Assembly: GCF_036898465.1 (NCBI RefSeq)
Contig: NZ_JARUMJ010000001.1
Span: forward strand, 3,968,001 to 4,032,000
Source: Streptomyces sp. B21-105
Lineage (GTDB): Bacteria; Actinomycetota; Actinomycetes; Streptomycetales; Streptomycetaceae
DNA length: 64,000 nt
Direction of reading: 5' to 3'
Below are positions 5,355 to 58,966 of the stretch, in pieces (position 1 is the first letter of the stretch; the number at the start of each line of letters is the position of its first letter). The notes below the pieces were generated by a model that made no database searches, was not told where the DNA came from, and worked only from the letters and a program-made list of their open reading frames with translations. The translations under genes and the position numbers were made by a program.

Positions 5355-7445
5355 TCAGCCGGCCGCGGCGCCGAACCCGACGGCGAGGTACTCCGGGTCG
5401 CCGCCCGAGGTGGCGTTGTCGTCGGCGTACACCTCCGACATGTACAGGCGTCCCTGGCCGAAGACGACCTCGGAGTACTCCGGGGACAGGCTGATCTCCA
5501 GGTCGTGCACCTCGTCCGTGGCCGCGTTCTCCAGCAGCACGGTCTGCTTGAACGTACCGCCGTCGACGCTGACGACCTGTCCGCCCTTGTCGTACGGCGG
5601 CCGCTTGTAGGCGATCAGGTTGCCGCCGTCCATCCGCAGCGGGTAGATCGTGTAGCCGTCGCCCGCGTCCGCGCGCTGGCCGGTCTGCTTGCCGGTGGCC
5701 AGGTCGAAGGCGACGACCTCGTTCGTCCTGCTGTAGGTGCCGCTGCCGTCGTGCTCCTCGGTGGGCACGTAGATGCGGTCGTTGCCGACGGCCAGGCCCG
5801 TGCAGGCCTCGACCTTGGTGATGCCCTCGCAGTCGGCCGCGTACTCGGCGCCCGGCACCGAGATGCGGGTGCGCAGCTTGCCGGTCTTGTTGTCGATGGA
5901 GAAGAAGTCCGAGATGCCGCTGCCGTCCCCGGCGCTGTCGCCGACGTCGGCGGCCACCACCAGGGGGTCGCTGGAGACGACGGACGCGTAGTCGATGCCC
6001 GTGGCCAGCTTGTACTCGGAGAGCACCTTCCCGGAGACCGGGTCGATGGTCTGGATGTGCAGCTCGGGGTTGTCGTACGCCCCGCACTTGCGCACCGCCA
6101 CCAGCTTGGGCCCGCCGCCGTAGCCGGCGTCGTGGCAGGTGTCGGCCGGCTTCGGCGACCACAGCACCTTGCCGGAGTCGATGTCGAATGCGGCGCCGCC
6201 GTCCGAGCTGCCCACGGCGACCGTGTTCGCGCTGACCGTGACGTTGTCGAAGTCGATCACGTAGTCGCCGGAGGTGACCGTCTTCTTCCACAGCTGCTTG
6301 CCCGCGGCGAGGTCGATCGCCGCGATCTGGTCGCAGCGTGCCGTCTCGGCGGCGCTCGCCTGGAAGACGATCGCGGTGCGGTGGTCGTCGGTGGCGAACC
6401 TGCTGGCCTCGCACACCGGGCCCGGCAGCGCGATCGTCCAGAGCTTGGTGCCCTTGACCTGGTCGTAGCCGGTGATCCCGTCGACGCCGGTCTTCACGTA
6501 CGCCTTGTCGGTCAGCCAGGAACCCCGGACGCCGACGCTGTCGTCCTTCTTGACCACCGGCATCGGCAGCTTGAAGAGCACGTCGGAGGACGGGTCGGCC
6601 GGCGCCTTCTCGCTGCCGCCGGAGGTCTTGCCGCCGGTGCCCCCTCCCGTGTCGCCCTTGTCGCCCCCGCCGCCGTTCGCGCCGCCGGAGCTCGCCTCCT
6701 CCTTCTTCTTGCCGCCGCTGTCGGAGTTCGCGTACCAGACGCCGCCGCCGACGATCAGCGCGATCGCGACGACCGCCGCGACGATGATCGCCACCTGCGC
6801 GTTGATTTTCCGGCCGGAACCCGCCGAGCCGCCGCCCGCGACGACCTGCGGCTGCATGGGCATGGTCGGCTGCCCCGGGTAGCCGTACCCGGGCTGACCC
6901 GGCTGACCCGGCTGACCCGGCTGACCCGGGTAGCCGTAGCCCGGCTGCTGGCCGTAGGCCGTGCTCTGCTGGCCGTAAGGGTTGGGCTGCGGCTGACCGT
7001 AGGGGTTCGGCTGCGGCTGGCCGTACGCCGACGGGGCGGGGGCGGGAGCCCCCGGCTGCGCCGGATAGCCGTAGCCGGGAGCGCCGGCCGGGGGCGCGGC
7101 GGGCTGGCCCGGCCCGTCGGCGGCCTGCGGGTAGCCGTAGCCCGGCTGAGGCTGCGGCGGCCCGGACGGAGCCGACGGCGGCGGAGTCGTCGGAGGAGTC
7201 GGCGAAGCCTGCGGCACCTGCCCTGGGGCCGGCGCCTGGGCCGGGGGCTGGGGCGCAGACTGCGGCCCGGGGGCCTTCGACAGGTCCGGCGCGTGCGGCT
7301 GCGGCGGAGCGTCCTGCGGGACGGCGTCCTGGGGAACGGCGTCCTGCGGCGTCGCGTCCTGCGGCGGCTGAGGCGGGCCGAAGCCGCCCTGCTGCGGGGG
7401 CTGGTTCGGCGGCTGGCTCGGCGGTTGGTTCGGGGGCTGGGTCAT
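5355..7445 (-). CDS. proline-rich single-TM protein with PQQ-like beta-propeller
   Basis: The 696-residue protein has a long Pro/Gln/Gly-rich N-terminal region (about 1-210) with PQPNPYGQ and GQP repeats, one TM helix (about 217-237, VAIIVAAVVAIALIVGGGVWY), a Ser/Gly linker, and an extracellular PQQ/WD-like beta-propeller with repeated ...DLATGKQ... and ...D.SGKVLW... blades. This is the architecture of propeller sensor domains on Streptomyces Ser/Thr kinases, but no kinase domain is present. Cofactor binding cannot be judged. It lies downstream of a paralogue (7583-9364) on the same strand with a 137-base gap, pointing to a tandem duplication. The 9-bp repeats coding GQP (about 6890-6926) may vary in copy number. 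Confidence 0.85.
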   Translation of the reverse strand: MTQPPNQPPSQPPNQPPQQGGFGPPQPPQDATPQDAVPQDAVPQDAPPQPHAPDLSKAPGPQSAPQPPAQAPAPGQVPQASPTPPTTPPPSAPSGPPQPQPGYGYPQAADGPGQPAAPPAGAPGYGYPAQPGAPAPAPSAYGQPQPNPYGQPQPNPYGQQSTAYGQQPGYGYPGQPGQPGQPGQPGYGYPGQPTMPMQPQVVAGGGSAGSGRKINAQVAIIVAAVVAIALIVGGGVWYANSDSGGKKKEEASSGGANGGGGDKGDTGGGTGGKTSGGSEKAPADPSSDVLFKLPMPVVKKDDSVGVRGSWLTDKAYVKTGVDGITGYDQVKGTKLWTIALPGPVCEASRFATDDHRTAIVFQASAAETARCDQIAAIDLAAGKQLWKKTVTSGDYVIDFDNVTVSANTVAVGSSDGGAAFDIDSGKVLWSPKPADTCHDAGYGGGPKLVAVRKCGAYDNPELHIQTIDPVSGKVLSEYKLATGIDYASVVSSDPLVVAADVGDSAGDGSGISDFFSIDNKTGKLRTRISVPGAEYAADCEGITKVEACTGLAVGNDRIYVPTEEHDGSGTYSRTNEVVAFDLATGKQTGQRADAGDGYTIYPLRMDGGNLIAYKRPPYDKGGQVVSVDGGTFKQTVLLENAATDEVHDLEISLSPEYSEVVFGQGRLYMSEVYADDNATSGGDPEYLAVGFGAAAG

Positions 7446-18099: not shown

Positions 18100-19743
18100 G
18101 TGACCAGTACCGCGTCCTCCATGGACTCCACGGACTATCGGCAGGGCCCGGCGCCGCACGACCGGCGGCCGTCGTGGCAGCAGCGGCTGCGCCGTTTCGG
18201 ATACCCGGCGCAGTCCTCGGCCGATGTCCGCGAGCGTCTGCTGCCGCCGTTCGCGCAGCCCAGCCCGCGGCTGTGGCAGGCGCTCGGCGTGCCGTACGGG
18301 TGGGCGGACCGGATCGTCCGCTGGTCGTCCTGGCTGGGGCCGCTGCTGGTCACACTGCTGGCGGGGGGCTTGCGGTTCTGGCACCTGGGCAGCCCCAAAG
18401 CGGTGATATTCGACGAGACGTACTACGCGAAGGACGCGTGGGCGCTGGTCCATCGCGGGTTCGAGGTCAACTGGGACAAGAACGCCAACAGCGCCATCCT
18501 CTCCTCGGGCGGTCATGTCCCGATCCCGGGGGACGCGGCGTACGTCGTGCATCCGCCGGTCGGCAAGTACGTGATCGGGCTGGGCGAACTGCTCTTCGGG
18601 TTCGATCCGTTCGGCTGGCGGTTCATGACGGCGGTGCTCGGCACGCTCAGTGTGCTGATGCTGTGCCGGATCGGCCGCCGGCTCTTCCGGTCCACGTTCC
18701 TCGGCTGTCTCGCGGGCGCGCTGATGGCGGTGGACGGCCTGCACTTCGTGATGAGCCGTACGGCGCTGCTCGACGGGGTGCTGATGTTCTTCGTGCTGGC
18801 GGCGTTCGGCGCTCTGGTGGCCGACCGGGACTGGGCCCGCGCGCGGCTCGCCGCGGCGCTCGAGCCGGACGCCGACGGCCGTTACCGGCCGGACGCGCAC
18901 GTCGCGGAGACGACGCGCATCGGGTGGCGTCCGTGGCGCTGGACGGCGGGCCTGATGCTGGGCCTGGCCATCGGCACGAAGTGGAACGGCCTGTACATCA
19001 TGGTCGCGTTCTGTGTGATGGCGGTGTTGTGGGACGTCGGCTCGCGCAGGGTGGCGGGCGCCCGGCAGCCGTACCTGGCGGTGCTGAAGCGGGACACGGG
19101 CCTCGCGTTCCTGGCGACGGTGCCGGTCGCGCTGGTCACGTACCTGCTGTCGTGGACGGGCTGGATCCTGTCCGCCACGGACGGCAAGGGCGGCTACTAC
19201 CGCAACTGGGCGGCCACCGACGGCAAGGGCGGCAGCTGGACGTGGCTGTTCCCCGACTGGTGGCGCAGCCTGTGGCACTACGAGCACGAGGTGTACGAGT
19301 TCCACACCCATCTCACGTCGCCGCACACGTACCAGTCGAACCCGTGGAGCTGGCTCGTCCTCGGCCGGCCGGTCTCCTACTTCTACGAGTCCCCGGCGCC
19401 CGGCGTGGACGGCTGTCCGACGGACGCGGGTGAGAAGTGCGCGCGTGAGGTGCTGGCCATCGGCACCCCGCTGCTGTGGTGGGCTGCCTGCTTCGCGGTG
19501 CTGTTCGTGCTGTGGCGCTGGCTGTTCCGGCGTGACTGGCGGGCGGGCGCGATCGTCTGCGCCGTCGCGGCGGGCTACCTGCCGTGGTTCATGTACCAGG
19601 AACGCACGATCTTCCTCTTCTACGCCGTCGTCTTCCTGCCGTTCCTGTGTCTGGCCGTGGCCATGATGATCGGCGCCCTGGTCGGCCCCCGGGCTCCAGC
19701 GACACCCGCCGGGTGGCAGGCGCCACAGGCGCGGGCGTCCTGA
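18100..19743 (+). CDS. pmt: polyprenyl-phosphate-mannose protein O-mannosyltransferase, 3' frameshifted
   Basis: Pmt transfers mannose from polyprenyl-phosphate-mannose to Ser/Thr of secreted proteins at the membrane. The open frame from GTG 18100 gives 547 residues with many TM helices. The first-loop acidic motif VIFDETYYAKD, needed for catalysis in the family, is present. After VG (codons at 19681-19686) the frame runs into 19 unrelated residues and stops at 19743, while the expected C terminus continues in the next frame to 19850 (GVLILLIAWNFVYFF...WLDTWV). One extra C in the five-C run at 19686-19690 would restore a protein of about 583 residues. The loss removes the last helix, so the gene is either broken, phase-variable, or mis-sequenced. 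It diverges from rsmI. Confidence 0.88.
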   Translation: MTSTASSMDSTDYRQGPAPHDRRPSWQQRLRRFGYPAQSSADVRERLLPPFAQPSPRLWQALGVPYGWADRIVRWSSWLGPLLVTLLAGGLRFWHLGSPKAVIFDETYYAKDAWALVHRGFEVNWDKNANSAILSSGGHVPIPGDAAYVVHPPVGKYVIGLGELLFGFDPFGWRFMTAVLGTLSVLMLCRIGRRLFRSTFLGCLAGALMAVDGLHFVMSRTALLDGVLMFFVLAAFGALVADRDWARARLAAALEPDADGRYRPDAHVAETTRIGWRPWRWTAGLMLGLAIGTKWNGLYIMVAFCVMAVLWDVGSRRVAGARQPYLAVLKRDTGLAFLATVPVALVTYLLSWTGWILSATDGKGGYYRNWAATDGKGGSWTWLFPDWWRSLWHYEHEVYEFHTHLTSPHTYQSNPWSWLVLGRPVSYFYESPAPGVDGCPTDAGEKCAREVLAIGTPLLWWAACFAVLFVLWRWLFRRDWRAGAIVCAVAAGYLPWFMYQERTIFLFYAVVFLPFLCLAVAMMIGALVGPRAPATPAGWQAPQARAS

Positions 19744-19850
19744 TCCTGCTGATCGCCTGGAACTTTGTCTACTTCTTCCCCTTGCACACGGGCCAGGCGA
19801 TCCCGATCGACGACTGGCGTTCACGGATGTGGCTGGACACATGGGTCTAA
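19691..19850 (+). pseudogene. pmt: displaced 3' end of pmt
   Basis: In the frame shifted by one base, translation from about 19691 reads a proline/glycine linker followed by LLIAWNFVYFFPLHTGQAIP and IDDWRSRMWLDTWV, the usual last helix and tail of actinobacterial protein mannosyltransferases, ending at TAA 19848-19850. No independent start or ribosome binding site precedes it, so it is the orphaned end of pmt. Confidence 0.85.
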
Positions 19851-19976: not shown

Positions 19977-21614
19977 ATGCGCAAGGGTGCCAAGGCGGCG
20001 ATCGTGGGCTCGGTGTTCGTCGTGATGGTGGGCGGGGCCGGCTACGGAGCGTTCAACATCGTGAACGCGTTGAGCGACACCGGCGGGAGCGGCGGGCCGG
20101 GAGGCGCCGAGCCGGTGGCCGTGAAGAGCGGACCGCCGAGCGACTCCGAGGTGAAGAAGACCAGCGCCGCGTTCTTCGCCGCCTGGGAGAAGGGACAGGC
20201 CGCGGCCGCCGCCGACCTCACCAACAACGCGGAGAAGGCCGGGCCGCTGCTGACCTCGTACGGCCAGGCCGCGCACATCACCGGCGTGAAGATCACACCG
20301 GGCAACGCCGTCGGCGACACCGTGCCCTTCTCCGTGAAAGCCACGGTGTCCTTCGACGGGAAGTCCAAGCCGCTCGCCTACCGGAGCCGGCTGACGGTCG
20401 TGCGGGGCGTCAGCACGGGCAAGGCGCTGGTCGACTGGCAGCCGTCGGTCGTCCATCCCGCGCTGAAGAACATGGACGACACCCTGGTCACAGGCGACTC
20501 GTCGGCGCCGTCGATCGAGGCCGTGGACCGGGACGGCAAGGTGCTGACAAAGGAGAAGTACCCCTCCCTGGGGCCGGTCCTGGACCAGCTGCGCACCAAG
20601 TACGGGGCGAAGGCGGGCGGGACGCCGGGCATCGAGCTGGCGATCCGGCACGCCACCCCCGACACCGCCGACACCTCGCTGCTGACGCTCGCCGAGGGCA
20701 AGGCGGGCAAGCTGCCCACCACGCTCAGCGCGAGCGTGCAGGCGGCGGCGGAGAAGGCGGTCCAGAAGTACCCCGAGTCCTCGGTGGTGGCGATCAAGCC
20801 GAGCACCGGCGAGGTGCTGGCGGTCGCCAACAACCGCACCGACGGCTGGAACGCCGCGTTCCTGGGCGAGGTCGCGCCCGGCTCCACCATGAAGATCATC
20901 AGCGCGGCCACCCTCATCGACAACGGGCTCACCACCGCGAACGGCCCCGCGCCCTGCCCGTCCTCGGCCGTGTCCGAGAGCCAGACCTTCAAGAACATCA
21001 AGGGCATGAAGCCCAACGAGGGCGCGACCCTCTCCGAGAGCTTCGCCCGCTCCTGCAACACGGCGTTCGTGAAGTTCGCGGACGAGGTGAAGGTCGACTC
21101 GCTGACGAACGAGGCCCGGGACCGCTTCGGGATCGGCCTCGACTGGCAGACCGGCATCCCCTCGTTCGACGGCTCGGTCCCGGCCGCGGGCGGCCCGGAC
21201 ACCGCGGCCGGCCTGATCGGCCAGGGCAAGGTCCAGATGAACCCGCTGAACATGGCGTCGGTGACGGCGACCGCGATGACCGGCGTCTTCCGGCAGCCGG
21301 TGATCGTGCCGCTGAGCCTCGACGACCGCGACCCGGCCCACGCGAAGGGGCTGTCGTCGAGCACCGTCCAGCAGTTGCGCTCCATGATGAACCGGACCGC
21401 GACCAGCGGCACCGCGGCCGAGGTGATGGCCGGGCTGAGCGGCTCCCGCATCGGCGCGAAGACCGGCTCCGCCGAGGTCGACGGGCAGGCCCGGTCCGAC
21501 AGTTGGTTCACTGGCTACCGCGGCGACGTCGCGGCCGCCGCGATGACCCAGGACGGCGGCCACGGCGTCGACGCGTCGGGGCCGATCGTCGTGCGGGTGC
21601 TGCAGGCCGGCTGA
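19977..21614 (+). CDS. penicillin-binding protein, transpeptidase with MecA_N domain
   Basis: The 545-residue membrane-anchored protein has a TM anchor (about 7-27), an NTF2-like MecA_N domain (about 47-160), and a class B transpeptidase domain. Active-site motifs are complete: S303-T-M-K306, S359-C-N361 and K495-T-G497. It should cross-link peptidoglycan outside the membrane and bind beta-lactams. MecA_N-bearing PBPs in other bacteria include low-affinity types, so reduced sensitivity is possible but not shown. A close paralogue follows at 21824. Confidence 0.93.
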   Translation: MRKGAKAAIVGSVFVVMVGGAGYGAFNIVNALSDTGGSGGPGGAEPVAVKSGPPSDSEVKKTSAAFFAAWEKGQAAAAADLTNNAEKAGPLLTSYGQAAHITGVKITPGNAVGDTVPFSVKATVSFDGKSKPLAYRSRLTVVRGVSTGKALVDWQPSVVHPALKNMDDTLVTGDSSAPSIEAVDRDGKVLTKEKYPSLGPVLDQLRTKYGAKAGGTPGIELAIRHATPDTADTSLLTLAEGKAGKLPTTLSASVQAAAEKAVQKYPESSVVAIKPSTGEVLAVANNRTDGWNAAFLGEVAPGSTMKIISAATLIDNGLTTANGPAPCPSSAVSESQTFKNIKGMKPNEGATLSESFARSCNTAFVKFADEVKVDSLTNEARDRFGIGLDWQTGIPSFDGSVPAAGGPDTAAGLIGQGKVQMNPLNMASVTATAMTGVFRQPVIVPLSLDDRDPAHAKGLSSSTVQQLRSMMNRTATSGTAAEVMAGLSGSRIGAKTGSAEVDGQARSDSWFTGYRGDVAAAAMTQDGGHGVDASGPIVVRVLQAG

Positions 21615-40450: not shown

Positions 40451-41322
40451 GCGCCCTCCTTCAACTGCGAGTAAGTGGTGACGAGTTCCCGGATCCGGCC
40501 GGTGACCAGCTCGGGCGCCTCGACCGGCGTCATATGGCCGAGGCCGGGCAGTTCGGTGACGCCGAGGCAGTGCGGCAGCGCCGCGGCTATCCGGTGCGCG
40601 TGCACCGGCGGGGTGAGCCGGTCGCCGGTGCCGACGATCACCGCCGTCGGCACGCTCAACTCCCGTACCCGGTGGTCGAGGTCGAGCAGGCGCAGCACGT
40701 GCGACCAGGCGTGCCGCACCTTGCGCGGACAGGCGTGCACGATGCGGGCGCACGCGTCCACCATGTGCGGGGCGGAACCGGCGCCCATCGTGGCGTACTT
40801 GAGGATCCGCTTCGCGACGGGCGTGACCGGTCCGAGGGGCGCCCTGGAGCCGAGGACGTGCCCGGTCAGCCAGGTCCGCAGCCGGCCCGGCCGCAGGGGC
40901 AGCACGGTGGACTCGGCGACCAGCCCCGAGGTGCCGGTGCTGCACAGCAGGACCGCAGCCGCATGCTCCCTCAACGCGTCCCTGGCAGCCGCCGCGATGA
41001 CCGTCATGCCGCCCATGGAGTGCCCGGCGATCACCGCTTTCTCACCGGGCGCGAGCGTCGCCGTGAGCACCGCCTCCAGGTCGTCGGCGAGCGTGTCCGT
41101 GCTGCACGCCGGGCTCGCCGGGGTGCGGCCGTGGCCGCGCTGGTCGTAGGCGATGACACGGTGGTCGGCGGCGAGGTCCCGGATCTGGTCCGCCCAGAAC
41201 GCGGTCGAGCAGGTCCAGCCGTGCGCGAGGACGACCGCGGGCGCGCCCTTGGGGCCGTGCACCTCCACGTGCAGGGACGTGCCGTCGGCGGAGACCGCGG
41301 TCAGGTCGCGGCGGGCACTCAC
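40447..41322 (-). CDS. alpha/beta hydrolase
   Basis: The 291-residue protein is an alpha/beta-hydrolase: oxyanion-loop VVLAHGWTCS, nucleophile elbow IAGHSMGGM (Ser around residue 98), acid in IVGTGDRLTP and general base in LPGLGHMTPVE. It is suited to ester or lactone hydrolysis. GTG 41322 overlaps the monooxygenase stop (GTGA), and its stop overlaps the SDR start. In the cassette it could cleave esters made by the monooxygenase. Confidence 0.92.
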   Translation of the reverse strand: MSARRDLTAVSADGTSLHVEVHGPKGAPAVVLAHGWTCSTAFWADQIRDLAADHRVIAYDQRGHGRTPASPACSTDTLADDLEAVLTATLAPGEKAVIAGHSMGGMTVIAAAARDALREHAAAVLLCSTGTSGLVAESTVLPLRPGRLRTWLTGHVLGSRAPLGPVTPVAKRILKYATMGAGSAPHMVDACARIVHACPRKVRHAWSHVLRLLDLDHRVRELSVPTAVIVGTGDRLTPPVHAHRIAAALPHCLGVTELPGLGHMTPVEAPELVTGRIRELVTTYSQLKEGA

Positions 41323-42839
41323 GCCGTCACCTCGCTGTCCGCCGTGCGCGGGCCGGCCGGGGCGGCCGGGGCCGTGGGCGCTCGCAGGACCTCGTACTCG
41401 GCGAGGTCCACCCGCCGCGCCGCACGCCGGAACTCGGAGGTGGTGCCCGGCCAGACGGTGGTGTTGCGGCCGTTCGCGTCCAGGTACCAGCTGGTGCAGC
41501 CGCCGGTGTTCCACACCGTGCGCCGCATCCGGTCCTGCACCCGGCGGTTCCAGGCGTGCACGGCGCTCGGGCGGGCGTCCAGGGCCGCCCTGCCTCCGAG
41601 GACGTCCAGCTGGCGCAGATAGTCGGCCAGGTAGTTCAGCTGGGACTCGATCATGAGGATCATGGAGTTGTTCCCGAGGCCCGTGTTGGGGCCGATGATC
41701 GTCATCCAGTTCGGGAAGCCGGCGGCGGAGGCGCCGCGCAGGGCCTCCATGCCGTCCTTCCAGCTCTCCGCCAGCGTCCGCCCGTCGGCGCCCACCACCC
41801 GGTCGGCGATCGGCATGTCCGTGACGTGGAACCCGGTCCCGAAGACGATCACGTCCGCCTCGGCCTCGGTGCCGTCGGCGGCGACCAGCGTGGACCCGCG
41901 CACCTCGCTCAGTCCGCTCGCGACGACGTCCACGTTGGGCTGCGCGAGGGCCGGATAGTAGGCGCTCGACAGCAGGATCCGCTTGCAGCCGATGCGGTAG
42001 TCCGGGGTGAGCTTGGCCCGCAGCACCGGATCCTTGATGACACGGGCCATGTTCTGCCGGGCGAGCTTCTCGACGAAACCGAGCTGGTTCGGCCGCTTGG
42101 TGAACGCCTGGACCTGCAGCTCCCGGATGCCCCACAGCAGCCCGCGGCGCGCCTGCGCGGTGACCGGCAGGGCCCGGTGCAGGGCGCGCTCCGCGCCGCT
42201 GATCGCCCGGTCGACGCGGGGCATCACCCACGGCGGGGTGCGCTGGAACAGCGTCAGCCGGGACACGTCGGGCTGCAGGGCGGGCACGATCTGGATGGCG
42301 GAGGCACCGGTGCCGACCATCGCGACGCGCTGCCCCGCCAGGTCGGCGTCGTGGTCCCAGCGGGCCGAGTGGAAGACCTTGCCGGGGAACGAGTCCAGGC
42401 CCGGGATCTGAGGGATCCTCGGGTCGGACAGCGGCCCGGTGGCCGACACGACGACGTCGGCGAAGTAGCGTCCCGCGCTCGTCTCGACGTCCCAGCGCAG
42501 TTCCCGCGCGTCCCAGGTCATCCGCAGCACCTCGGAGTCCAGCCGCAGGTGCGGCCGCAGCCCGAACACGTCCGTGACGTGCTCCAGGTAGGCGCGGATG
42601 TGTTCCTGCCCGGAGAAGGTGCGCGGCCAGTCGGGGTTCGGGGCGAAGGAGAAGGAGTACAGGTGGGAGGGCACGTCGCAGGCGCACCCGGGGTAGCTGT
42701 TGTCCCGCCAGGTCCCGCCGACGCTGCTCGCCCGCTCGAGGATCACGAAGTCGGTGATCCCCTCCCGGCGCAGCCGCACGGCGGCCCCCAGCCCGCCGAA
42801 GCCGGACCCGATCACCGCCACCCGTACGTGTTCGGTCAT
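41319..42839 (-). CDS. flavin-containing / Baeyer-Villiger-type monooxygenase
   Basis: The 506-residue enzyme has an FAD-binding GSGFGGLG (residues 11-18), a second nucleotide motif GTGASAIQ for NADPH, and the fingerprint F151-P-G-K-V-F-H157-S-A-R-W161-D, matching the BVMO pattern FxGxxxHxxxW. It should insert one oxygen into a ketone to give an ester or lactone, or oxidise a heteroatom. It heads the coupled cassette and is divergent from a MerR gene, with a perfect palindrome between them. Confidence 0.92.
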   Translation of the reverse strand: MTEHVRVAVIGSGFGGLGAAVRLRREGITDFVILERASSVGGTWRDNSYPGCACDVPSHLYSFSFAPNPDWPRTFSGQEHIRAYLEHVTDVFGLRPHLRLDSEVLRMTWDARELRWDVETSAGRYFADVVVSATGPLSDPRIPQIPGLDSFPGKVFHSARWDHDADLAGQRVAMVGTGASAIQIVPALQPDVSRLTLFQRTPPWVMPRVDRAISGAERALHRALPVTAQARRGLLWGIRELQVQAFTKRPNQLGFVEKLARQNMARVIKDPVLRAKLTPDYRIGCKRILLSSAYYPALAQPNVDVVASGLSEVRGSTLVAADGTEAEADVIVFGTGFHVTDMPIADRVVGADGRTLAESWKDGMEALRGASAAGFPNWMTIIGPNTGLGNNSMILMIESQLNYLADYLRQLDVLGGRAALDARPSAVHAWNRRVQDRMRRTVWNTGGCTSWYLDANGRNTTVWPGTTSEFRRAARRVDLAEYEVLRAPTAPAAPAGPRTADSEVTA

Positions 42840-56008: not shown

Positions 56009-56064
56009 TCAGGGTTCGAGCGTCAAGGTTTCGACCATCAAGGCTCGAGCGTCAGGGTGTCGAC
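56009..56064 (-). repeat. tandem duplication of the penicillin-acylase 3' end
   Basis: The last 27 bases of the acylase gene, stop codon included (56038-56064), are repeated with five changes at 56009-56035, two bases downstream. The two copies read VDTLTLEP-stop and VETLTLEP-stop. Confidence 0.75.
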
Positions 56065-58824
56065 GGTGCTGCCGTCGACCGCCTTCTTGCCGAAGGACCA
56101 GTCGAGCAGCTCACCGTCGGCCCACTTGTCCGTCTGGTCGGTGTAGTGGGCGCTGAAGGCATGCCCCGAGGCGCCGGTGAGGTTGATCCACTTCGACTTG
56201 TCGAGGTCGTCGAGGTTGACCACCATCCGCATCGACGGCACCCACACGACGCCGTAGCCGCCGGCCGCGTTCCAGCCGGTCGCGTCGACCGTCGCCTCGC
56301 CGCCGCCGAGCTCCCAGGGGCCCCTGTTGAGGATGTACTGCAGGAAGCCGGGTCCGCTGGTGCCCAGGGTCTGGTTGTTCAGGAACAGGCGGTGCAGCCG
56401 GCCCCAGCTCCAGGTGTCGATGTCCTTGCCGAGCTTGGCGGTCAGCTCCCAGCGTGCGTCGATCATGGCCCGCTCGAACAGCTTGTCCCGGTCGTTGACG
56501 GCCGCGGGGCGGGTGCCGACGGCGGGCGTCGTCCACCACGGGCTGTCCTTCTTCTCGACGAGTGCGCGCACCACCTCGAACCAGCGGTCGCCGCCGTCCG
56601 GCTGCGCCTGGTCGGCGTCGCGCTGTCCGCACTCGCGGACCTTGTCCGTGTCGTCGACGGGACCGGTGGTGTTGACAGGGTCGACCCACAGGCACTGGTC
56701 CTCGACGCGCAGCTCCTTGGGCAGTTTGTTGCCGAACGCCAGCTTCAGGATGTTGCGCCATACCGCGTTGAAGTAGGCGGCGGCCGCCGAGTCGGCGTCC
56801 TGGCTGTAGTCCCAGCCCTGCAGGAGGTCCTGCGCCTCACGGACGTCGGGGTCCTTCAGGTTGATCTTCAGCAGGTACGGCCGGAGCAGCTTCGCGATCT
56901 GGCTGTCGTCGTCCAGCTGCATCTGGCGCATGTCGTCCGTGGAGATCTTGCCGCCGCCCTTGATCTTGCCCTTGATCAGGTCGGTGATCCGCTGGCTGCG
57001 CGCGCCGTAGCCCCAGTCCGTGGTGAGCGTGTAGGGGTACTTGTCCTTGTCGATCACGGCCTGGTTGGCGGTGACGATGTACCCGCGCGCGGGGTCGTAC
57101 TCGTAGGGCAGCTCGTCGAACTTGATGTACTGCCGCCACCGGTACCTGGAGTCCCAGCCCTCCGCCGGGACCGAGCCGTCGACGCCCTTCGCGCGCGTGG
57201 GGATCTTGCCGGGCAGCTGGTAGCCGATGTGGTTCTGGGTGTCGGCGTAGACGAGGTTCTGCGAGGGGACGTCGAAGAGCTCGGCCGCCTTGCGGAAGTC
57301 CTTCCAGTCCTTCGCCCTGTTCATGGCGAAGACGGCGCTCATGGTGGTGCCCGGCTCCAGGGCGGTCCACTTCAGGGCGACGCCGTAGCCGTCGCCTCGG
57401 TCGGGCGCCTCGCCCTCAACGGTGGCCTTCTTGCCGACGTCGACGAGTTCGTCGTCACGGTCGGACAGCAGGGGCATCCCGTCCTCGGTCTGCCGGACGA
57501 CGATCTTCTTGGAGTCGCCGCCGGCGACCCTGATGGTCTCCTCGCGCGTGACGAACGGCTTCACCTTGCCGTCGTACTGGTAGCCGTCGTCCCCGGACAG
57601 CTTCTCCAGGTAGAGGTCGGTGACGTCGACGCCGGAGTTGGTCATGCCCCAGGAGATGTCCGCGTTGTGGCCGATGACGACGCCGGGCATCCCCGCGAAG
57701 GTGTAGCCGGCGACGTCGTACTGGCAGGTGCTGGAGACCTTCCGGCAGTGCAGACCCATCTGGTACCAGACGGAGGGCAGCGACGCCGACAGGTGCGGGT
57801 CGTTGGCCAGCAGCGGCTTTCCGGTGATCGTGTGCGCGCCGCCGACGACCCAGCTGTTGGAGCCGATGCCGTTGCCGTTCACGCCGACGGCGGTGGGCAG
57901 GTCGTCCAGGACGTCGTAGAGGCCCGCGAGCTGGCTCTGCAGGGCCGACCCGGAGCCGCCCGAGGTGTCGCCAGAGCCGCTGCCGTCGCCGGAGCCGCTG
58001 TCGCCGTCGTTGCCGTCGTTGCCGTCGTTGCCGTCGCTCTGCTCGAACGTCTTGGTCAGCTCGTCGTACTGCCCTTCCTGGACGATCGGCTGGTTGGTCC
58101 CGTAGGGGTACTGCGGGTACAGGTCGGCGATCTGCTGCGGGCCGAGGCGGCTGGTCATCAGGGCGCGGTCGATCTCGTCCTGCATGTTGCCGCGCAGGTC
58201 CCAGGCCATCGCCTTCAGCCAGGACACCGAGTCGACCGGGGTCCACTCGGCGGGCTTGTAGTCGTTGGTGAACCCCAGGGCCGCGTACTCCAGGGAGATG
58301 TCCGCGCCGTCCTTGCCCTTGAGGTAGGCGTTGACCCCCTGGGCGTACGCCTGGAGGTACTTCCTGGTGTCGGCCGACAGCTTGGTGTCGTACTCCGTCT
58401 TGGCGATCCGGTCCCAGCCCAGGGTGCGCAGGAACTCGTCGTTGTCGATCTGGCTCTTGCCGAACATCTCGGACAGCCGCCCGGAGGTCATGTGCCGGCG
58501 GACGTCCATCTCGTAGAACCGGTCCTGGGCCTGTACGTAGCCCTGCGCCATGAACAGGTCCGCGTCGGAGTCCGCGTAGATCTGCGGGATGCCGTAACCG
58601 TCCCGCTGGACGCTCACCGGTCCGGAAAGGCCCTCGAGCTTGATCGAACCCGTGGTCTGCGGGAAGGACGCGCGGACCGTGCTGATGGACCAGTAGGCGC
58701 CGTAGGCGATGCCTCCGATGATCGCCAGCACCAGTACAAGAACGATCAAACGGGCTTTGCGCCCCTTCTTCCTGCCGGACTTGACGGGCTTGTCACCCGA
58801 TGTGGCGGTGGTGTTGGGGGGCAT
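56038..58824 (-). CDS. penicillin acylase family Ntn-hydrolase precursor
   Basis: The 928-residue precursor has an N-terminal basic region and TM anchor (about 26-48), an alpha part (VQRDGYGIPQIYADSDADLFMAQGYVQAQDRFYEMDVRR), an acidic DGN/GSG-rich spacer (about 275-305), and a beta part beginning at S322 in NGIGSNSWVVGG, the expected autocatalytic nucleophile. The family cleaves amide bonds of beta-lactams, acyl-homoserine lactones or lipopeptides; the substrate here is unknown. ATG 58824 has AAGGA at suitable distance; GTG 58845 is an alternative. 9-bp repeats coding GND/DGN (58005-58040) lie in the spacer. Confidence 0.9.
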   Translation of the reverse strand: MPPNTTATSGDKPVKSGRKKGRKARLIVLVLVLAIIGGIAYGAYWSISTVRASFPQTTGSIKLEGLSGPVSVQRDGYGIPQIYADSDADLFMAQGYVQAQDRFYEMDVRRHMTSGRLSEMFGKSQIDNDEFLRTLGWDRIAKTEYDTKLSADTRKYLQAYAQGVNAYLKGKDGADISLEYAALGFTNDYKPAEWTPVDSVSWLKAMAWDLRGNMQDEIDRALMTSRLGPQQIADLYPQYPYGTNQPIVQEGQYDELTKTFEQSDGNDGNDGNDGDSGSGDGSGSGDTSGGSGSALQSQLAGLYDVLDDLPTAVGVNGNGIGSNSWVVGGAHTITGKPLLANDPHLSASLPSVWYQMGLHCRKVSSTCQYDVAGYTFAGMPGVVIGHNADISWGMTNSGVDVTDLYLEKLSGDDGYQYDGKVKPFVTREETIRVAGGDSKKIVVRQTEDGMPLLSDRDDELVDVGKKATVEGEAPDRGDGYGVALKWTALEPGTTMSAVFAMNRAKDWKDFRKAAELFDVPSQNLVYADTQNHIGYQLPGKIPTRAKGVDGSVPAEGWDSRYRWRQYIKFDELPYEYDPARGYIVTANQAVIDKDKYPYTLTTDWGYGARSQRITDLIKGKIKGGGKISTDDMRQMQLDDDSQIAKLLRPYLLKINLKDPDVREAQDLLQGWDYSQDADSAAAAYFNAVWRNILKLAFGNKLPKELRVEDQCLWVDPVNTTGPVDDTDKVRECGQRDADQAQPDGGDRWFEVVRALVEKKDSPWWTTPAVGTRPAAVNDRDKLFERAMIDARWELTAKLGKDIDTWSWGRLHRLFLNNQTLGTSGPGFLQYILNRGPWELGGGEATVDATGWNAAGGYGVVWVPSMRMVVNLDDLDKSKWINLTGASGHAFSAHYTDQTDKWADGELLDWSFGKKAVDGSTVDTLTLEP

Positions 58825-58966
58825 CGCTGTCCTTGCTGTCCTCACACTAGCGGCAGGCGGGCTGTCCTTCGATTGAGTGCTGGAGCAACCATAGGCGCAG
58901 GGGTTCGCGCGACTTGACGCGGAGTCGAGTACTGGCGCGGAAGGATGTTCGACCTCACGTCGCGGA

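Follow-up and report, generated by a model that had tools for sequence, protein, structure and literature searches.

A single missing base in the pmt gene of Streptomyces sp. B21-105 is probably a residual assembly error, and the 3' end of the gene is a predicted attachment site

Background

Protein O-mannosyltransferases of the GT39/Pmt type carry an Asp-Glu motif in the first outer loop (PMC11727336). The mycobacterial enzyme is described as having eleven helices, with its C terminus outside the membrane (PMC12331936). For the Pmt of Streptomyces coelicolor, it is reported that very conservative substitutions may cause misfolding and degradation (PMC11727336, citing Holman 2021). S. coelicolor pmt mutants are viable and resistant to phage phiC31, and their sensitivity to vancomycin and beta-lactams is increased; the association of pmt loss with phiC31 resistance and cell-wall antibiotic sensitivity, on which the initial annotation of the DNA described below had drawn, is in print (PMC5882110, PMC6593405). 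DT1025 is a laboratory pmt frameshift mutant of S. coelicolor (PMC5882110). When membrane proteins are blotted with concanavalin A, pmt and ppm1 mutants of S. coelicolor show no bands (PMC6593405). Streptomyces also harbors integrative elements, for which 36 sites in tRNA genes and 14 in protein genes are reported (PMC9513070).

The window, that is, the whole stretch of 64,000 nucleotides from Streptomyces sp. B21-105 that was analyzed, belongs to a contig of 9.15 Mb (9,152,429 bases) in a genome of 9.21 Mb and three contigs. It includes a pmt gene whose reading frame is broken near the 3' end. One-base indel errors occur in assemblies of high-GC genomes.

The pmt gene as assembled

The features of the locus are listed in Table 1. 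As assembled, pmt starts with GTG and encodes 547 residues up to a TGA at 19741-19743; an ATG at 18121 is a possible alternative start. The Asp-Glu motif of the first outer loop is present in the product (FDETYY), and D98 and E99 are invariant in 47 sequences. The upstream neighbor is presumably rsmI-like, and the downstream neighbor is taken to be a penicillin-binding protein.

Table 1. Features of the pmt locus in the window (positions are those of the window)
Feature	Position	Strand	Basis
pmt (protein O-mannosyltransferase, GT39 type), early end	18100..19743	+	ORF list; Pfam PMT, PMT_2, PMT_4TMC
C5, site of the frame break	19686..19690	+	Alignments: one base fewer than in aligned intact relatives
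17 foreign codons and TGA stop caused by the break	19690..19743	+	Translation
Normal Pmt C-terminal part in the neighboring frame, TAA end at 19848-19850	19686..19850	+	Exact match to residues 523-576 of P0001
Divergent upstream neighbor, 290 aa	17164..18036	-	ORF list
Usual downstream neighbor, 545 aa, directly after pmt	19977..21614	+	ORF list
Predicted vacant attB core at the pmt 3' end, 32 bases, 3 mismatches to the common core	19815..19846	+	Pattern search

Translation confirms what the initial annotation had described: the frame leaves its expected course at the run of five Cs and stops at 19743, and the normal C terminus is open in the neighboring frame to 19850. The foreign tail comprises 17 residues, not the 19 that had been counted. 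The last helix was said to be lost, and indeed the last predicted transmembrane stretch (residues 532-550 by hydropathy) falls beyond the break. The tail, which ends in WRSRMWLDTWV, contains neither a stop nor a further indel in the alignments. The same split is seen with Pfam profiles. The first frame matches PMT with 60 bits and PMT_4TMC with 49.5 bits, and the remainder of PMT_4TMC is found in the next frame with 26.7 bits, which is below the cut-off. Profile positions 2-118 and 158-202 of PMT_4TMC lie in two frames in the window genome, whereas positions 2-202 lie in one in G013, a sister genome. A complete C-terminal module in a single frame is therefore absent from the assembled gene.

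The part beyond the break is conserved. In the 47 sequences, 28 of the 53 residues after position 523 are invariant, compared with 238 of the 523 before it. Just past the break the window and G013 differ at 13 of 120 positions, compared with 2-10 per 120 elsewhere in the gene, and the residue changes in this part are also found in P0001, an intact protein from another assembly that is described below.

No second pmt was found in a profile search of the window genome. A second, diverged paralogue exists in the sister (G013:C1:468264-468842), and diverged paralogues are also carried on the large plasmids NZ_CP108366, NZ_CP109481, and NZ_CP108303. A sequence search of solved structures with Pmt gave one distant match, a Pmt4. 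An AlphaFold model of P0001 was set aside as too poor (mean pLDDT 52).

Which base is missing

Among 113 relatives, the longest run of Cs at the site is six in nine, five in four, and four or fewer in 100, and a conserved slip-prone tract is not found there. G134 and G400 read GGC CCA CCG at the site. G013 and G250, which are the closest species by protein identity among the best 150 of 389 matches, both read GGT CCC CCG, with a T before five Cs, in frame. Deletion of the T from this sequence leads to the window sequence in one step, while deletion of a C from a run of six would need a prior change of T to C. Since the closest species have T followed by five Cs in frame, it may be a T that is missing. 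The initial proposal that one extra C restores the frame thus stands in that the sequence is one base short, but a missing T is another reading.

The pmt frame across the genus

Almost every genome of the genus has the gene. A pmt match at E 1e-60 is found in 389 of 392 genomes, and the assemblies of the three without one (G074, G123, and G300) all have more than 1000 contigs. The 150 best-scoring rows were inspected one by one. Because such a list favors complete genes and is biased against truncations, 160 further genomes were inspected. Row-by-row coverage of the 392 genomes consists of 150 + 160 + 14, with 68 outside it. Residue 576 is reached in 307 of the 310 genomes inspected in this way (149/150 of the best-scoring, then 78/80 and 80/80 of the others). 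The three exceptions are the window genome, in which the match ends at 525, G087, and G143. In G087 the cause is a stretch of Ns in the assembled sequence. G143 has a one-base break elsewhere in the pmt tail (L268, G143:C49:4201-4450); it is a draft of 460 contigs and 90% completeness. Ten genomes have pmt in two or three pieces, nine of them in a single open frame; in G399 (55% complete) the pieces lie in several frames. G222 and G074 have the pmt end piece only, and no match at all was obtained in G123 and G300.

At the level of loci, the normal end is found in one frame at 109 of 111 pmt loci, the 109 being pooled from two sets that possibly overlap, and the remaining two are the window's own locus. 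Related strains that share the early stop, a case raised in the initial annotation, were looked for, and none exists among the 109 loci. Recurrent natural loss of pmt is not evident.

Frame breaks in the window assembly and its sister

The frames of 1.2 Mb of the window genome were compared with those of 1.16 Mb of G013, at more than 85% identity. The 571 G013 genes matched gave 17 frame-split flags (in 16 genes) in the window assembly. By inspection, three of these are mid-gene breaks. They lie in the genes of Pmt, of a Zn alcohol dehydrogenase, and of an oxidoreductase taken to be LLM-class, and in each case a single base is lacking. The latter two breaks lie at G000:C1 near 4197891 and 4626983. 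Most other flags reflect over-extended N termini, intergenic stretches, or changes in G013, and two flags of a single base close to N termini (440 and 747) were assigned to neither class. Note that the mid-gene breaks were chosen by eye and that such frame-split lists are rich in false positives at over-extended N termini. No broken essential gene was found in the 1.2 Mb of the window assembly that was compared.

In the reverse comparison, 599 genes gave 22 flags, with one site counted twice. Within these 599 genes, the frame of G013 is broken mid-gene by a single base in at least eight places, for example opposite 41319-42839 and 56038-58845 of the window. Both assemblies thus carry one-base breaks at a low rate, which fits residual errors without proving them. 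A survey of in-frame stops (39 and 26) was dropped, as these fell mostly in over-long or wrong-frame predicted ORFs.

Intact proteins from other assemblies

Protein searches were made with Pmt, with the dehydrogenase, and with a fast-evolving neighbor (5355-7445), and the best 120 matches of each were considered. P0001 is a one-frame protein of 576 residues from another assembly, and the one contig listed for it has 51,061 bases (the window contig has 9,152,429). The first frame of the window gene agrees with it at every residue up to 523, and the neighboring frame at every residue from 523 to 576. P0002 (Logan) is also an intact Pmt, with a few differences. For the dehydrogenase, the intact P0128 is identical to the two frames of the window genome at 143 of 144 and 203 of 206 residues. 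The best match of the fast-evolving neighbor among those listed, P0241, is identical at only 679 of 699 aligned columns, which indicates that the assembly behind P0241 is of a different strain. The strain of P0001 may be the same as that of the window or merely of the same species.

The pmt 3' end as a predicted attachment site

In Streptomyces, the last codons of pmt very probably serve as an attachment site for tyrosine-integrase elements, judging from repeats and integrase genes near this gene in other genomes. The first sign was extra short matches to the last pmt codons a few kb downstream in several species. A 23-base core matches with up to 3 mismatches in 118 of 131 genus genomes. Two copies of the core within 25 kb on one contig occur in nine of the 131, always on the same strand and never on opposite ones. 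The reversed pattern gave 29 matches in the same 131 genomes, a rate at which less than one chance pair is expected near pmt. G023 and G283 have second copies too, more diverged. Altogether, a second copy is found 1.2-19 kb downstream of pmt in 11 genomes. In seven of these (G015, G019, G023, G034, G064, G110, and G283) a tyrosine integrase gene (PF00589) ends 0.14-0.83 kb before the second copy. In G089 the integrase is degraded to a piece with a stop, and a PF00589 search found no integrase near the second copy in G016, G099, and G148. The 11 genomes have 6 to 22 PF00589 matches each in total, so an integrase less than 1 kb from the copy is unlikely by chance. At L070 the second copy continues in frame into a further stretch without a Pfam match, which presumably resembles an integrase end.

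At L070 and L099 the gene that normally lies downstream of pmt comes after the second copy. Within the 1.5-2.8 kb examined, this gene is absent at 20 of the 109 loci, some of which may be ordinary rearrangements. In the window, the core is present as a single copy (up to 3 mismatches) and the usual neighbor comes directly after pmt, and the site is therefore predicted to be vacant.

Copies of the pmt tail were also sought outside chromosomes. A 93 kb IMG/VR contig (L262:3069-3110) encodes 13 of the last 14 Pmt residues with no pmt gene in the 7.7 kb examined, and this copy is possibly an attP or a prophage end. No match to the pmt tail was obtained in phage records. Tail matches on plasmids comprise nine records, of which four (H1, H3, H5, and H6) were opened. 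L263, L264, and L265 (H1, H3, and H5) turned out to be full paralogues rather than orphan tails, and L266 (H6) a decayed pmt paralogue, and plasmids were therefore dropped as support for the attachment site.

The genes directly downstream were scanned with Pfam for 16 of the 20 loci (16 genes), ten of them also with PADLOC. Two genes match GajA/OLD-like profiles and one a type IV restriction profile; a fourth has SRA and HNH domains with no PADLOC match. The remaining genes are transposon-related, ordinary, or unknown. These defence-like genes (GajA/OLD-like ATPases, an HNH type IV restriction-like gene, and SRA-HNH) lie directly behind pmt at L038, L095, L025, and L090. In G034 (L025), pmt is followed directly by the restriction-like HNH gene, then by the integrase and, 16.6 kb on, by the second copy, which is the complete layout expected of an attachment site at the pmt 3' end.

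It is tempting to combine these observations into a larger picture, in which the pmt 3' end is a genus-wide dock for tyrosine-integrase elements that replace the last codons of the gene, some of them with anti-phage genes, so that a gene needed by phages such as phiC31 would host defence against them, and in which the window would show the dock empty and Pmt knocked out. As a whole this picture is tentative and, on balance, unlikely. The predicted attB is located some 125 bases downstream of the break and leaves the break unexplained.

Assembly error or real mutation

The base is missing from the window assembly, is present at every relative locus examined, and is followed by an undecayed tail. 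We consider it probable (roughly 60%) that the loss of the pmt base is a residual assembly error. The base would have been lost in sequencing or consensus calling, outside the cell, and the living strain would then make a full-length protein O-mannosyltransferase. The break is private to the window genome and is shared by neither G087 nor G143. It affects the sole pmt of the genome, in a genus in which nearly all genomes have the gene. For two of the three broken genes, intact proteins exist elsewhere, residue-identical for pmt (P0001) and nearly so for the dehydrogenase (P0128). Sequencing error had been named at the outset as the main alternative, and it gains support from P0001, from the 109 intact loci, and from the one-base-short form of the breaks. 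On the other side, real pseudogenes could also plausibly account for three breaks in 571 genes, the break in G143 means that breakage of the pmt tail is not unique, whatever its cause, and divergence from G013 is higher just past the break than in the remainder of the gene.

The serious competitor, although a doubtful one, is a real loss-of-function mutation that arose recently in the sequenced isolate and is private to it. Phage selection or laboratory passage could be its cause, and precedents exist in the phiC31-resistant laboratory pmt mutants of S. coelicolor, which include a frameshift mutant (PMC5882110); as such mutants live, loss of pmt is viable. Several observations would suit a mutation. 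There is no second pmt to mask its effect, the lost part is rich in invariant residues, the window assembly is otherwise poor in frame breaks, and G143 shows a one-base break in the tail as well. However, the window break is found in no other of the 310 genomes, that of G143 is at another position and in a draft of many contigs, and an intact residue-identical copy exists elsewhere. In addition, all three mid-gene breaks are one base short, as expected of deletion-type errors, which with three cases is a weak argument.

If the break were real, the truncated Pmt is predicted to have a null effect, given the conservation of the lost part, the position of the C terminus in the mycobacterial enzyme, and the possible misfolding of substituted S. 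coelicolor enzyme. Glycosylation would likely be lost, and resistance to phiC31-like phages and sensitivity to cell-wall antibiotics would be expected. The opposite view, that the truncated enzyme is tolerated or the break bypassed by ribosomal or transcriptional slippage, so that the strain is Pmt-positive as written, can appeal to an enzyme that is nearly whole up to residue 523, and is very improbable given that the early end occurs at none of the 109 relative loci, that the lost tail is strongly conserved, and that relatives do not share a slippery run at the site.

The break could also be imagined as the scar of a mobile element formerly integrated at the pmt 3' end, which is very probably an attB of the genus and is preceded in the window by the more diverged stretch past the break. 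We give this hardly any credence, as the break precedes the repeated core by about 125 bases, a second copy of the core was not found in the window genome (up to 3 mismatches), the usual neighbor directly follows pmt, and the repeats of all measured pmt elements stop well short of the break. Five Cs are short for a contingency tract. A phase-variable switch, suggested in the initial annotation, in which slippage of the C run toggles Pmt within the population, would fit the location of the break at a C run and is otherwise hardly credible, since the run is not conserved in the 113 relatives and the T before five Cs in G013 and G250 means that the lost base was possibly a T.

The distinction has practical consequences. 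If the missing base is an error, annotation pipelines would wrongly call this strain Pmt-negative, phage-resistant, and antibiotic-sensitive; if the loss is real, it is a natural Pmt-negative Streptomyces. As for the attachment site, a landing site in pmt would tie an enzyme that decorates a phage receptor to elements able to carry restriction-type defence, and Streptomyces genetics would gain the pmt 3' end as a further integration target.

Comparison with known systems

The preferred reading, a residual assembly error, resembles the indel errors of high-GC genomes in that a single base is missing at a C run, the frame is otherwise undecayed, and the assembly has a few more breaks of this type. 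Among described mutants, S. coelicolor DT1025 (a frameshift) and DT2008 concern the orthologous pmt and are linked to phiC31 resistance, and in both DT1025 and the window the frame is broken. The frameshift of DT1025, however, begins far earlier, at A121 (PMC5882110), whereas in the window only the last helix and the tail would be lost, and the window break is probably not real.

A full-text literature search gave no report of pmt as an integration target in the titles or abstract starts among the matches listed. The term 'mannosyl' is absent from the main texts of PMC9513070, PMC10023795, and PMC12924846, whose supplementary tables may list pmt. The elements predicted at the pmt 3' end share end repeats, an integrase, varied cargo, and decayed forms with the AICEs, ICEs, and prophages described for Streptomyces (PMC9513070). 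They differ from these known elements in their target, which would be pmt.
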